Of a stretch of DNA of 64,000 nucleotides, positions 32,750-38,066 are shown piece after piece; position 1 is the first letter of the stretch; the number at the start of each line of letters is the position of its first letter. The notes under the pieces are model-generated. The model was not told the DNA's origin, searched no databases, and saw only the letters and a list, made by a program, of their open reading frames with translations. Where the stretch lies: assembly GCF_015277775.1 (NCBI RefSeq), contig NZ_CP063849.1:1674001-1738000 (forward strand), read 5' to 3'. The translations under genes and the position numbers were made by a program. Origin of the DNA: Paludibaculum fermentans. Its GTDB lineage: Bacteria; Acidobacteriota; Terriglobia; Bryobacterales; Bryobacteraceae.

Positions 32750-32772
32750 CGCCATAAACGCATTTAATGGCG
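32750..32772. promoter_or_regulatory. Inverted repeat just upstream of the ilv promoter
   Basis: CGCCAT and ATGGCG form a perfect 6 bp inverted repeat separated by 11 bases. It ends eight bases before the -35 box of the ilv leader promoter, a position suited to an activator. Confidence 0.4.
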
Positions 32773-32780
32773 ATCACATC

Positions 32781-32809
32781 TTGCATTTTCCGGACTAACA
32801 CCCTAATCT
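32781..32809 (+). promoter_or_regulatory. Promoter of the ilv leader and operon
   Basis: TTGCAT (32781-32786) and TAATCT (32804-32809) are exactly 17 bases apart. The -10 box ends seven bases before the ATG of the leader peptide, so the leader is likely read from a transcript beginning at its start codon. Confidence 0.65.
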
Positions 32810-32816
32810 GTAGAAG

Positions 32817-32930
32817 ATGACTCTGACCGAACAGCTCTGGAACCACCAGCAACTGAGCGGCAGAGCCGTGCAACTTTTCGTAGTAGTAGGGATTATTCAG
32901 ATTGGGGTCACCGTACTGGGACCTGCCTGA
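32817..32930 (+). CDS. ilv operon leader peptide (attenuator), 37 residues
   Basis: The frame ATG to TGA encodes 37 residues. Residues 22-34 read VVVGIIQIGVTVL, that is five Val, three Ile and one Leu in thirteen, using GTA three times and ATT three times, codons that are uncommon in this GC-rich DNA. Ribosomes short of charged Val or Ile tRNA would stall here. The stop codon lies inside the 5' arm of the antiterminator helix described next, so a ribosome that finishes the peptide covers that arm and lets the terminator form. The gene is too short for standard gene callers. Confidence 0.85.
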   Translation: MTLTEQLWNHQQLSGRAVQLFVVVGIIQIGVTVLGPA

Positions 32931-32995
32931 GTGAGCCTTACCTGAGTTACAAAAAAGGCCACCAGGCGGAAAGATCCCGCCGAGGTGGCCTTTTT
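32923..32995 (+). terminator. Transcription attenuator of the ilv operon (antiterminator and terminator)
   Basis: Terminator: GGCCACC (32957-32963) pairs with GGTGGCC (32984-32990), extended inside by GGCGG/CCGCC and outside by A6/T5, ending in a T tract. Antiterminator: CTGCCTGAGTGAGCC (32923-32937) can pair with GGCCACCAGGCGG (32957-32969), giving 13 base pairs with two bulged A residues. The two structures share the same segment and exclude each other. The antiterminator arm covers the leader stop codon, which gives the classic translation-coupled switch. Confidence 0.85.
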
Positions 32996-33041: not shown

Positions 33042-34772
33042 ATGTCCAACCTGATGAGTGGTGCACGCATTTTATTGGAGTGCCTGGCGCGCGAAGGCGT
33101 TGACGTGATCTTCGGCTATCCCGGAGGCGTCACGCTACCTTTGTACGACGTCATCTACGACAACCCCATTCGCCATGTTCTGGTGCGGCACGAGGAAAAC
33201 GCAGCTTTTTCCGCCGCCGGGTATGCGCGAGCAACGGGCAAGGTGGGCGTGTGTTGCGCGACCTCCGGCCCCGGCGCGACCAACCTGACGACCGGCCTGG
33301 TGGATGCCATGATGGACTCCATCCCGGTGGTGGCCCTCACCGGCCAGGTGACCAGCAAGCTGATCGGCAGCGACGCGTTCCAGGAAGCCGACACGTTCGG
33401 CATCACGCGGCCCTGCACGAAGCACAACTTCCTGGTCAAAGACATCAAGGAACTGGCGCAGATCGTTCACGAGGCCTTCCACATCGCCTCCACTGGCCGT
33501 CCCGGGCCGGTGCTGGTCGACATCACGAAGGACGTGCTGCAAGGCCAGGCGCACTACACGCCGATCAACGAGATTCACCTGCCGGGCTACAAGGTGGTCA
33601 CCGACGGCCATGCCGGCCAGATCCGGCGCGCGGCGCAGATGATGTGGGAAGCGCAGCGGCCTTACGTTTACGCGGGCGGCGGCATCCTGGCGGCGGGCGC
33701 ATCGCCTGAGCTGAAGGAACTGGTCGAGACGCTGGACGCGCCGGCGGTCTGCACCCTGATGGGTTTGGGCGGCCTGCCGGGTTCGCATCCGAACTTTATC
33801 TCGATGCCGGGCATGCACGGCTCCTACACGGCCAACATGGGCATGTATGAGTGCGACCTGCTGATCGCCCTGGGTGTGCGGTTTGACGACCGCGTGACGG
33901 GCCGGCTGGCGGCGTTCGCTCCGCATGCCAAGGTGATCCACGTGGACATCGATCCGGCCGAGATCGGCAAGAACCGCACGGCGGATCTGCCCATCGTCGG
34001 CGACGTGAAGAAGGTCCTCGGCAAGCTGAACCGGAACCTGAAGGAACTGGAACCGGAGATGGCCTCGAAGAACTCGGAAGGCCGCAATGCCTGGTGGAAG
34101 CAGGTGCGCGGCTGGCAGGCGGAGCATCCGCTGGAGCCGGTGTTCTCGGCCGACGAGATCAAGCCGCAGCACCTGATGTACGAGATCAACAAGCTCTCTG
34201 ACGGCAAGGCGATTGTGAGCGTGGATGTGGGCCAGCACCAGATGTGGGCCGCGCAGTTCATCAAGTTCGACAATCCGCGGACCTGGATCTGTTCGGGCGG
34301 CCTCGGCTCGATGGGCTTCGGCCTGCCGGCCGCGATCGGCGCGCAGATGGCGCATCCTGACCAGACCGTCTTCGCGATCTGCGGCGACGGCGGCTTCCAG
34401 ATGGCCCTGCCGGAACTGGCGACCCTGGTGAACTACCAGCTGCCGGTGAAGGTGATCATCATGAACAATGGCTACCTGGGCATGGTGCGCCAGTGGCAGG
34501 AATTGTTCTACAACAACCGTTTGTCGTCGGTGGAGTTGAGCGCGTTCCCGAACGTGGAACTGCTGGCCGCCGCGTATGGAATGAAGGGGCGCATCGTGCA
34601 CACCCCCATGGAACTGGCTTCGGCGTTGAAGGAAGCGGTGGACGAGCCGGGTCCTTACCTGATGGATGTGCGCGTGTCGCAGTTTGAAAACGTCTACCCG
34701 ATGGTTCCGGCCGGAGCCGCCATCAACGAGATGGTGCTGGCCCCGCCGCAACCGGTGGCTGTGCCCCGCTAA
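33042..34772 (+). CDS. ilvB: Acetolactate synthase large (catalytic) subunit
   Basis: 576 residues from ATG 33042, preceded by GAGAGGA. The thiamine-diphosphate enzyme signature is complete: the catalytic glutamate in VRHEENAAFSAAGYARATG, the GDGGFQMALPELATLVNY cofactor motif ending in IIMNN, and the FAD-binding middle domain. It condenses two pyruvates, or pyruvate and 2-oxobutyrate, in the first shared step of valine, leucine and isoleucine synthesis. First gene of ilvB-ilvN-ilvC-cimA, controlled by the attenuator upstream. Confidence 0.97.
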   Translation: MSNLMSGARILLECLAREGVDVIFGYPGGVTLPLYDVIYDNPIRHVLVRHEENAAFSAAGYARATGKVGVCCATSGPGATNLTTGLVDAMMDSIPVVALTGQVTSKLIGSDAFQEADTFGITRPCTKHNFLVKDIKELAQIVHEAFHIASTGRPGPVLVDITKDVLQGQAHYTPINEIHLPGYKVVTDGHAGQIRRAAQMMWEAQRPYVYAGGGILAAGASPELKELVETLDAPAVCTLMGLGGLPGSHPNFISMPGMHGSYTANMGMYECDLLIALGVRFDDRVTGRLAAFAPHAKVIHVDIDPAEIGKNRTADLPIVGDVKKVLGKLNRNLKELEPEMASKNSEGRNAWWKQVRGWQAEHPLEPVFSADEIKPQHLMYEINKLSDGKAIVSVDVGQHQMWAAQFIKFDNPRTWICSGGLGSMGFGLPAAIGAQMAHPDQTVFAICGDGGFQMALPELATLVNYQLPVKVIIMNNGYLGMVRQWQELFYNNRLSSVELSAFPNVELLAAAYGMKGRIVHTPMELASALKEAVDEPGPYLMDVRVSQFENVYPMVPAGAAINEMVLAPPQPVAVPR

Positions 34773-34784
34773 GGAGTAATTGTC

Positions 34785-35321
34785 ATGCTGATGACCATAT
34801 CTATATTGATGGAGAACAAGCCGGGCGCCCTGATGCGCGTCACGGGCCTGATCAGCCAGCGCGGCTACAATATCGAGTCATTGACAGTGGCTCGGACACT
34901 TGATCCGACGTTGTCCCGAATGACGCTGATGGTGGACGTCGAGTCGCGGCTGCGGGGCCTGGTGATTAAGCAGATGAACCGCCTGGTGAACGTACTGCAG
35001 GCGGCGGATCTGACGGACGCACCGGCCGTGATGCGCGAGATGGTGCTGCTGCGGGTGCGCGCCACCCAGGAGAACCGGACGGCTATCTTAAAAGAGTCGG
35101 AGATTTTCGGGGCCCGCGTGGTGGATTCCTCCGTGGAGGGCTTCGCCCTGGAGGCGACCGGCGCCTCGGAGAAGATGGAAGAGTTTATCGCCGTCATGGA
35201 AACTTACGGCGAAATCGAAGTCACGCGATCGGGGATGGTGGCGGTGAGCCTGGAAGCCAAGAAGCTCCGGCTGGCGCCGCCGATCTCCAAGGGCCAACCG
35301 GAGACGGTGGGACAGGTTTAG
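34785..35321 (+). CDS. ilvN: Acetolactate synthase small (regulatory) subunit
   Basis: 178 residues, starting 12 bases after ilvB with AAGGAG before the ATG. The N-terminal ACT domain (ISILMENKPGALMRVTGLISQRGYNIESLTV) binds valine for feedback inhibition, and the C-terminal half (ENRTAILKESEIFGARVVD) matches the IlvN/IlvH C-domain. It activates IlvB and makes it sensitive to end product. The symbol ilvH is equally used for this family. Confidence 0.95.
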   Translation: MLMTISILMENKPGALMRVTGLISQRGYNIESLTVARTLDPTLSRMTLMVDVESRLRGLVIKQMNRLVNVLQAADLTDAPAVMREMVLLRVRATQENRTAILKESEIFGARVVDSSVEGFALEATGASEKMEEFIAVMETYGEIEVTRSGMVAVSLEAKKLRLAPPISKGQPETVGQV

Positions 35322-35441: not shown

Positions 35442-36449
35442 ATGGCAAATCGTTTTTATGAGAAGGACGGCTCGCTCGCTCCGCTCGCGGGCAAGACAGT
35501 GGCCATCGTCGGCTACGGCTCGCAGGGCCACGCGCACGCGCTGAACCTGCGGGATTCGGGCGTGAACGTGATTGTGGGCCTGCCGCCCACGTCGAAGTCC
35601 AAGGCGAAAGCCGAATCCGCCGGTCTCACCGTGGTGACCCCGGCCGAAGCGGGCGCCCAGGCCGACGTCATCATGGTTCTGGTCCCGGATCACATCCAGG
35701 CCGACCTCTACAACAACGACCTGGCGCCGTCGATGAAGCCGGGCAAGACGCTGATGTTCGCGCACGGTTTCAACATCCACTTCGGCTTCATCACTCCTCC
35801 GGCCGGCGTGGACGTTTCGATGATCGCGCCCAAGGCCCCCGGCCACCGCGTCCGCGAAGTCTTCACCGAAGGCCAGGGCGTGCCGGCGCTGATCGCCGTT
35901 GCCCAGGATGCCTCCGGCAAGGCCCACGAGAATGCCCTGGCGTATGCCCTGGCGCTCGGCTCCCTCAAGGCTGGTGTGATCGAGACCACGTTCAAGGAAG
36001 AGACCGAGTCGGACCTCTTCGGCGAGCAGGCTGTGTTGTGCGGCGGCGCCTCCGAACTGATCCGCGCCGGTTTCGAAACCCTGGTGGAAGCCGGCTACGC
36101 GCCGGAAATCGCCTACTTCGAGTGCCTGCACGAGCTGAAGCTGATTGTCGACCTCATCTATGAGGGCGGCCTCAGCTACATGCGCTACTCGGTTTCCGAC
36201 ACGGCCGAGTATGGCGACTACACGCGGGGTCCGCGCATCATCAACGAGCAGACCCGCGCCGAGATGCGGAAGATCCTCTCCGAAATCCAGTCCGGCGAAT
36301 TCGCCAAGACATGGATGGCGGAGAACAAGAGCGGCCGTTCCGGCTTCCTGGCCATGCGGGAAGGCGCGCGCAAGCAGCGTATCGAGACCGTCGGCGCCGA
36401 GTTGCGCGACATGATGACCTTCCTCAAGAAGAAGAAGGTAGAAGAGTAA
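35442..36449 (+). CDS. ilvC: Ketol-acid reductoisomerase
   Basis: 335 residues, the class I (short) form. The Rossmann motif [17 protein letters not shown] binds NAD(P)H. The loop [11 protein letters not shown] carries the Ser/Lys residues that often mark NADPH preference. Metal-binding acidic residues lie in [16 protein letters not shown] and [18 protein letters not shown]. It isomerises and reduces acetolactate or acetohydroxybutyrate. GGAAAGGA lies upstream of the ATG. Third gene of the operon. Confidence 0.97.
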
Positions 36450-36455
36450 ACTGCA

Positions 36456-38066
36456 ATGCGTATCTGGACATTTGACACCACCCTCCGTGACGGCACGCAA
36501 GGCGAAGCCGTGTCTTTCTCAGTGGAAGACAAGCTGCTCATTACCCAGAAGCTCGACGAACTGGGTATCGACTACATTGAGGGCGGCTGGCCGATGTCCA
36601 ACCCGAAGGACAAGGAGTTCTTCCTGAAGGCGCGTGAGCTGAAGCTGAAACATGCCAAGCTCACCGCCTTCGGGGCGACCCGGTTTGCCCGCAACCCGGT
36701 GGAGAAAGACTCCAACGTCCTGGCGCTGCTGGAGGCGGAAACGCCGGTCATCAGCATCTTTGGCAAGACCTGGGATATCCACGCCACGCGCGTTCTGGGA
36801 ATCTCGCTGGAAGAGAACCTGACGTTGATCGCCGACACGGTGCGGTTCCTCAAGGACCATGGCCGCGAAGTGGTCTACGACGCCGAGCACTTCTTCGACG
36901 GCTACCAGGCGAATGCGGACTACGCCTTGAGCACGCTGGAGGCCGCAAAGGAAGCGGGCGCGGACGTATTGTGCTTGTGCGACACCAATGGCGGGACGCT
37001 GACGCACCGCCTGGCCGAGATCGTCAGCATTGTCCGCGAACGGTTTGACGGCATCCTGGGCATCCACTGCCACAACGATTGCGACCTGGCCGTGGCCAAC
37101 ACCATGGCGGCGGTGGATCAGGGCGTGACGCATGTCCAGGGCTGCATGAACGGCTATGGCGAGCGCTGCGGCAACGCGAATCTGTCCAGCGTGATTGCCA
37201 ACCTGGAAGCAAAACTGGGCCACTCCACCATCGGCCCGGAGAAGCTGACTTCGCTCACTTCGGTGGCGCATTACATCGCCGAATTGGCCAACCTGCCGGT
37301 ACCGGCGGGCCAGCCGTTTGTGGGCCGCAGCGCGTTTGCCCACAAGGGCGGCGTGCACGTCAGCGCGGTTTTGAAGGACTCGATCACCTATGAGCACATC
37401 CGGCCGTCCGTTGTCGGCAACCGCCAGCGCGTCCTGTTGAGCGATCTAAGCGGCCGCGGCAACATCCTCTACAAGCTGCAGCAGTACGGCATTGGCGACC
37501 GCCTGAAGGACGATGCCAAGCGCGAACTGCTCGACCGCATGAAGACGATGGAGTACCTCGGCTACGAGTTGGAAGCCGCCGAAGGGACCTTCGAATTGCT
37601 GGTGCGGGAAGCCCTGCAGCCCGGCATGCATTTCTTCGAAGTGGTGAGCTTCGAAGTGGGTACTCGCATGATCGGCAGCCGGCCATCAGAAACGACGGCG
37701 ACGATCATTCTGCGGATCAACGAGGCGATTCATTCGGCCACCGCGTCGGGCGAAGGTCCGATGAACGCGTTGGACCTGTGCCTGCGGCAGTGCATCTCGG
37801 CCACGTATCCGGCCATCGCCAGTGTGCGGCTGACCGATTATAAGGTGCGCGTGATCTCGACAGAGAAAGGCACCGCCTCGAAGGTGCGCGTGCTGGTGGA
37901 ATGGTCCGATCACCGGCGCTCCTGGGCCACGGTGGGGGTCAGCGACAACGTGCTGGAAGCGTCGTGGAATGCGCTGGTCGACGCCATCCGGTTGGAACTG
38001 ATGCGGCTGGCGGACAAAGACGAGTCGATTGAGAAGGCCGTCGAGGATTACTGCTGGGGCGTGTAG
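36456..38066 (+). CDS. cimA: (R)-citramalate synthase
   Basis: 536 residues. The DRE-TIM signature FDTTLRDGTQGE opens the protein, HCHNDCDLAVANT holds the metal-binding His pair, and YDAEHFFDGY is typical of citramalate synthases as opposed to isopropylmalate synthases. The C-terminal 150 residues form the LeuA-type allosteric domain, the expected target of isoleucine feedback. The enzyme makes citramalate from pyruvate and acetyl-CoA, giving 2-oxobutyrate for isoleucine without threonine. It starts six bases after ilvC, so this route is co-controlled with ilvBNC. Confidence 0.9.
   Translation: MRIWTFDTTLRDGTQGEAVSFSVEDKLLITQKLDELGIDYIEGGWPMSNPKDKEFFLKARELKLKHAKLTAFGATRFARNPVEKDSNVLALLEAETPVISIFGKTWDIHATRVLGISLEENLTLIADTVRFLKDHGREVVYDAEHFFDGYQANADYALSTLEAAKEAGADVLCLCDTNGGTLTHRLAEIVSIVRERFDGILGIHCHNDCDLAVANTMAAVDQGVTHVQGCMNGYGERCGNANLSSVIANLEAKLGHSTIGPEKLTSLTSVAHYIAELANLPVPAGQPFVGRSAFAHKGGVHVSAVLKDSITYEHIRPSVVGNRQRVLLSDLSGRGNILYKLQQYGIGDRLKDDAKRELLDRMKTMEYLGYELEAAEGTFELLVREALQPGMHFFEVVSFEVGTRMIGSRPSETTATIILRINEAIHSATASGEGPMNALDLCLRQCISATYPAIASVRLTDYKVRVISTEKGTASKVRVLVEWSDHRRSWATVGVSDNVLEASWNALVDAIRLELMRLADKDESIEKAVEDYCWGV

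Follow-up and report, generated by a model that had tools for sequence, protein, structure and literature searches.

The enterobacterial ilvGMEDA and ilvBN attenuators combine a leader peptide with a logic of three competing helices, features that recur at the locus described here, from which they differ in their ordinary ribosome binding sites, in the order of their operons and, in ilvG, in carrying Leu codons too. In the leader of Corynebacterium ilvBNC (IlvL, the 'ilvB uORF' motif), 15 residues with Ile, Val and Leu codons precede a competing terminator and antiterminator (PMC11857589, PMC11109978); in C. glutamicum, the reported transcription start of ilvBNC and the start codon of the leader are a single nucleotide apart, and the leader peptide is reported to be formed without a ribosome binding site (Morbach et al. 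2000, cited in PMC11857589). In Streptomyces and Mycobacterium, too, terminators and short frames containing Ile, Val and Leu codons precede ilvB, and because replacing the supposed regulatory codons of the S. coelicolor ilvB leader was reported to be without effect (PMC1262725), attenuator anatomy alone is no proof of mechanism. By the account given in PMC2965389, hardly any attenuator predicted in Acidobacteria and other such phyla has an associated function, and none of the literature matches listed (titles and abstract starts of open-licence papers) describes an acidobacterial ilv attenuator.

Here we describe what is very probably a ribosome-mediated Val/Ile transcription attenuator ahead of ilvBNC-cimA in Paludibaculum fermentans. 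Such an element had been proposed in a first-pass annotation of the window (the whole 64,000-nucleotide stretch of DNA analysed), and our analysis confirms its parts, with coordinates that were correct to within two bases. The assignments of ilvB, ilvN, ilvC and cimA each exceed a curated NCBIfam cut-off, and the closest named relatives of the window's IlvB, at 72-74% identity, come from Acidobacteria and Bryobacterales MAGs. With the Corynebacterium leader, compared by description and not by sequence, the locus shares the first genes of the operon, Val and Ile leader codons, competing terminator and antiterminator helices and, probably, a leader start at the transcription start with no ribosome binding site; it differs in phylum, in lacking an Rfam match in the window, and in the leader itself, which spans 18-51 codons across the family and is rich in Val and Ile but depleted in Leu. 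The principle, then, is already known from other bacteria; new are the acidobacterial case, its patchy spread and a conserved upstream palindrome. For a phylum in which predicted attenuators had been given hardly any function (PMC2965389), the locus provides a comparative case of attenuation by a leader peptide. Its features are as follows.

32754-32768, unstranded: palindrome and candidate operator, family consensus ATAAA-N5-TTTAT (ATAAACGCATTTAAT in the window)
32781-32786, plus strand: -35 box TTGCAT (extended TTGCATTT), conserved in the family
32804-32809, plus strand: -10 box TAATCT, matched by TANNNT at the corresponding position in 46 of the 52 distinct sequences of the family
32817-32930, plus strand: leader open reading frame of 37 codons with a Val/Ile-rich end, its stop TGA within the antiterminator
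32886-32941, plus strand: protector helix hiding the antiterminator arm (32886-32900 with 32927-32941), from the minimum-energy fold
32923-32969, plus strand: antiterminator (32923-32939 with 32955-32969), from folding, with pairing and covariation in relatives
32952-32995, plus strand: intrinsic terminator (32952-32969 with 32977-32995) with a U-run at its end, from folding and covariation
33042-34772, plus strand: ilvB, acetolactate synthase large subunit (ATG at 33042), above the TIGR00118 cut-off
34785-35321, plus strand: ilvN, acetolactate synthase small subunit, above the TIGR00119 cut-off
35442-36449, plus strand: ilvC, ketol-acid reductoisomerase, above the TIGR00465 cut-off
36456-38066, plus strand: cimA, citramalate synthase, above the TIGR00977 cut-off

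The leader is probably leaderless or nearly so, with transcription predicted to begin at its start codon. Only 7 nt separate the -10 box from the leader ATG, and TTGCAT (in one case TTGCGT) followed by a -10-like hexamer recurs in 54 of 56 family sequences; because a generic sigma-70 scan returned no promoter at the window's leader and TTGCAT agrees with TTGACA at only three of six positions, the promoter call rests on this conservation. If transcription is assumed to start 7 nt past the -10 box, the first in-frame start lies -2 to +3 nt from that point in 32 of the 52 distinct family sequences and within 13 nt of it in 51 (identical sequences counted once, 52 of 54, with G036 and G159 excluded for having no promoter match). 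Those 32 leaders open with GTG (18), ATG (12) or TTG (2). A real attenuator whose transcript starts farther upstream, or whose leader is started from a Shine-Dalgarno sequence, is an unlikely alternative that nonetheless deserves weight: the transcription start is here a prediction from sequence, the generic promoter scan is empty, a Shine-Dalgarno-like stretch occurs in 6 of the 52 sequences, and to the eye, the boxes resembling a promoter in sister family f3 seem to stand farther from the frame. Against it, the spacing of TTGCAT, -10 box and first in-frame start is near-fixed, the distance from stop to promoter varying by contrast with a standard deviation of 17 nt.

Because the boxes of f3 seem more distant, the probable leaderless start looks like a family-specific trait. 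Leaderless genes have been reported in all three Acidobacteria genomes surveyed, at 9.7-19.4% of genes (PMC3160421). When the leader is folded at full length, its ATG is itself paired (helix 32817-32869), which could hinder initiation. The first-pass annotation had placed the transcription start at the leader ATG, a placement that the conserved spacing of -35 box, -10 box and start codon favours as a prediction, and had called a leaderless leader combined with attenuation unusual, which holds only in part, the combination having already been reported for C. glutamicum ilvBNC. With this locus, attenuation would seem to be driven in a second lineage by a start codon placed where transcription begins, and the system is a ready test of ribosome-polymerase coupling by leaderless initiation.

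The leader frame (32817-32930) translates as MTLTEQLWNHQQLSGRAVQLFVVVGIIQIGVTVLGPA*, 37 amino acids, and both its length and its Val/Ile-rich character are as first annotated. As in branched-chain leader attenuators generally, it is a short frame rich in codons for the operon's own amino acids: across 52 distinct family leaders, Val and Ile make up 45% of the last 18 codons, as against 12% in seven long open reading frames of the window. The two codons singled out as rare in the first-pass annotation are indeed so, GTA accounting for 5.9% of Val codons and ATT for 18% of Ile codons in the seven window frames, whereas in the leaders they supply 52% and 62%, respectively. Leu codons, at 6.8% in the leaders and 11.8% in the window frames, are depleted; because GTA and ATT are over-used and Leu is not, the signal appears to be Val and Ile rather than Leu.

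The antiterminator, annotated at first with 13 pairs, is slightly longer, its 15 pairs joining 32923-32929, 32931-32933 and 32935-32939 to 32955-32969 across two single-base bulges; as annotated, the leader stop (32928-32930) sits in its 5' arm, an arrangement repeated in relatives. A terminating ribosome is thus placed, in the window and in its relatives, to block the antiterminator. The terminator draws on the same segment, as had also been claimed (32952-32969, against 32955-32969 in the antiterminator), forming 17 pairs with 32977-32995 and ending in TTTTT, and by folding and comparison the two helices are mutually exclusive. A generic terminator scan did not list the window's terminator (32952-32995), probably because its stem is interrupted. 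The attenuator region as a whole folds with a z-score of -6.4, none of 200 shuffles being equally stable. The minimum-energy fold contains a third helix, 14 pairs long, between the Val/Ile codons and the arm of the antiterminator. This protector helix is strong in the window's own genus and is not kept across the whole family: pairing of the antiterminator arm exceeds 0.5 in 34 of 53 family sequences versus 21 of 53 codon-shuffled leaders (p about 0.05), and with pairing at or below 0.16 in 15 of the 53 we reject the helix as a universal feature.

The sequences themselves show the parts, the way these compete, are conserved and covary, and the bias in codons; leader translation, the transcription start and amino-acid-dependent read-through we infer. 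RNA polymerase would start at the leader ATG or no more than one or two bases away, and a ribosome would translate the nascent leader. With Val-tRNA and Ile-tRNA plentiful, the ribosome would reach the stop and cover the 5' arm of the antiterminator, whereupon the terminator would form and transcription would stop ahead of ilvB; with Val or Ile scarce, it would stall at GTA or ATT codons well upstream of the stop, opening the protector helix and leaving the antiterminator arm free, so that the antiterminator would form and ilvBNC-cimA be transcribed. Across the family, the leaders' Val/Ile codons cluster 5 to 14 codons ahead of the stop; by the inferred geometry, a ribosome stalled 5 to 7 codons before the stop probably still covers the antiterminator arm, and one stalled at the farther codons would free it.

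Most of the order's genomes that were searched have the same layout. IlvB is present in 57 of 61 genomes, that of P. fermentans included, and the stretch before ilvB was examined in 49: 32 from its own family (f1, itself included), 15 from the sister families f2 and f3, and 2 from other orders (left out were G003, at locus L012, and G011, G014, G043, G051, G055, G056 and G060). By inspection, a frame rich in Val/Ile codons terminates in 47 of the 49 within an arm that has its complement in a hairpin farther downstream, the layout being absent from the two other-order genomes; G045 and G046, which score 9 and 8 where the two negatives score 8 and 8, enter the 47 only through alignment with G042 and G052, and the U-run is weak or missing in six f3 genomes (G038, G041, G042, G045, G046 and G052). 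Loss of the leader codons and competing pairings in close relatives, which the first-pass annotation had held would count against it, is thus not what we see, and the comparison strongly supports its proposal of a Val/Ile attenuator that would be coupled to translation.

A detector requiring a frame of at least 12 codons, at least five Val/Ile codons near its end, a hairpin with a T-run and at least six pairs between the stop region and a hairpin arm called 29 of the 32 f1 and 8 of the 15 f2/f3 genomes, and, on controls from all groups together, none of 89 reverse strands and none of 356 dinucleotide shuffles. A covariance model (R1), built from 36 of the 47 sequences with near copies and most f3 sequences with poor terminators omitted, matches, at E <= 0.01, 221 of the 250 genomes searched from the order, and 152 of the 163 with a completeness of at least 90% and a contamination of at most 5%, counts in which the model's source genomes are partly among those searched and in which some of the 221 matches, such as those in G100, G167 and G232 (E 0.004-0.007), are weak and perhaps represent other terminators. 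In all 37 order members with a placed IlvB, the match lies 2-139 nt before it on the same strand. In one genome (G016), ilvB, cimA and an ilvN-like gene occupy three separate places and each has a leader and attenuator of its own ahead of it, which ties the element to the pathway and not to one spot.

The helices covary in relatives upstream of ilvB, where the first-pass annotation had proposed that covariation be sought: the terminator clearly, the antiterminator modestly. Because two arm types differ by one base, a first alignment (A1) missed the antiterminator, RNAalifold recovering only the terminator from it; sequences were therefore split by 3'-arm pattern before counting, a step that favours structure. 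Alignments A4 and A5 contain 53 of the 54 distinct sequences of the family, G002 being absent from A5 and G019 and G023 being trimmed at their 3' ends. Among 40 sequences of one arm type, terminator positions are 98.5% paired with 36 cells changed on both sides, and antiterminator positions 97.1% paired with 8 such cells, 6 of them on a single pair; in both cases none of 500 shuffles did as well, although related sequences can beat shuffles without structure. In the arm type to which the window belongs (13 sequences), terminator pairing stands at 98.3%, and 7 cells are changed on both sides (0 of 500 shuffles). For the antiterminator of these 13, 92.3% of cells are paired as against at most 51.1% when the arms are slid, and both-side changes affect four pairs, a number attained by 2 of 500 shuffles; a control slid by one column shows as many such changes (four pairs, five cells), and the other four of five measures are attained by between 22 and 389 of the 500. 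Between two species of the window's own genus (G007 and G008), one pair difference is compensated.

Attenuators also occur, scattered, beyond the order, in counts that cover the stretch directly before ilvB, so that a leader ahead of ilvD in ilvD-ilvB genomes would be missed. The detector was positive in 1 of 23 loci from other orders of the class (G328) and in 4 of 19 loci, from 18 genomes, of other classes (G481 twice, G505 and G558); inspection by eye together with R1 added G372, G366, G319 and possibly G355 in the class, and G578 in another. The detector found no attenuator in 12 chosen loci of family f6 or in G059, yet the attenuator-bearing G372 and G366 also belong to f6; the spread in the phylum is thus patchy. 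The distant attenuators have their principle in common more than their sequence. Outside the order, 24 genomes have an R1 match, and of the 12 examined, four carry an ilvB attenuator (G355, G372, G319, G366) and eight do not. One of the four, G355 (L162), may be contamination: its IlvB, which contains one stop codon, is 73% identical to the window's, as against 46-54% for other members of f7. Of 20 R1 regions examined, eight hold an attenuator upstream of ilvB, cimA or an ilvN-like gene (L162-L165, L172-L174 and L178), one (L179) has a hit sequence identical to that of L178 and lies where its contig ends, and the remaining 11 are other terminators or chance matches, for which reason R1 was rejected as sole proof.

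Further observations concern leaders elsewhere. In G481, of another class, two ilvB genes (L203 and L207) each follow a Val/Ile-rich leader and a terminator, the two peptides differing. At L197 (G287) and L214 (G527), neither called by the detector, a short frame containing Val or Leu codons precedes a terminator and ilvB; these are possible further attenuators. In the P. fermentans genome, no leader was noticed by eye in the roughly 510-610 nt before a leuA-like gene and two ilvD matches.

That the element might be a plain or constitutive terminator preceded by a chance open frame we regard as very improbable. Strong terminators are common, and R1 catches others, as in the 11 of 20 regions above; but the leader here has its own conserved promoter, the family's leaders are biased towards Val and Ile codons, the antiterminator is paired and partly covarying, the copies in G016 stand before ilvB, cimA and an ilvN-like gene, and reverse strands and shuffles yield no detector call. 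A riboswitch, T-box or protein-bound antiterminator with an incidental short frame, which has precedent in that ilvB is elsewhere under other RNA control, including a ppGpp riboswitch in some firmicutes (PMC11109978), is equally implausible, since no Rfam family reaches its gathering score in the window (seven weak matches appear at a permissive threshold, none near that score) and conservation lies in the codons and two hairpins with no separate folded domain seen.

Ahead of the attenuator's predicted promoter, the palindrome stands at a fixed distance from the -35 box, 12 nt before TTGCAT, in 54 aligned family sequences, with seven of its ten arm positions 83-98% conserved and three 54%. The P. 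fermentans genome matches the palindrome followed by TTGCAT with one mismatch or none at this place only; five more places have two mismatches, a number similar to the three of the control. In two genomes of other orders (G258 and, by eye, G057), the palindrome lies 11 nt before a TTGACA box and the detector calls no attenuator, and a Bryobacterales MAG (L033) keeps palindrome and TTGCAT promoter with no R1 match. Tentatively, and with more doubt than confidence, we suggest two layers of control in Bryobacterales-like Acidobacteriota: a dimeric regulator at ATAAA-N5-TTTAT might set promoter firing, after which the leaderless leader would meter read-through, the Val/Ile signal depending on initiation directly at the 5' end. 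On this proposal the palindrome would be older than the attenuator, remaining where the latter is absent (L033, G057, G258), and attenuators would have arisen or been lost several times in the phylum, independently of the equivalent solution in Actinobacteria.

The shape of the palindrome fits a T-N11-A box, which suggests a LysR-type regulator as a hypothesis. Elsewhere in the P. fermentans genome (C1:2780491-2782708; L222, L229), a LysR-type gene is divergent from a leuA-like gene that falls below the leuA family cut-off, and is a candidate regulator of branched-chain genes; as the regulator of the palindrome it is at most a tentative candidate, the stretch before it having no match to the palindrome patterns tried. 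In the f6 loci (L184-L195), a palindrome like TACCGACTGGTCGGTA lies past the ilvB -10 box in 11 of 12, that of G336 being one base short; we take it to resemble a TetR-type operator, standing in place of the attenuator.
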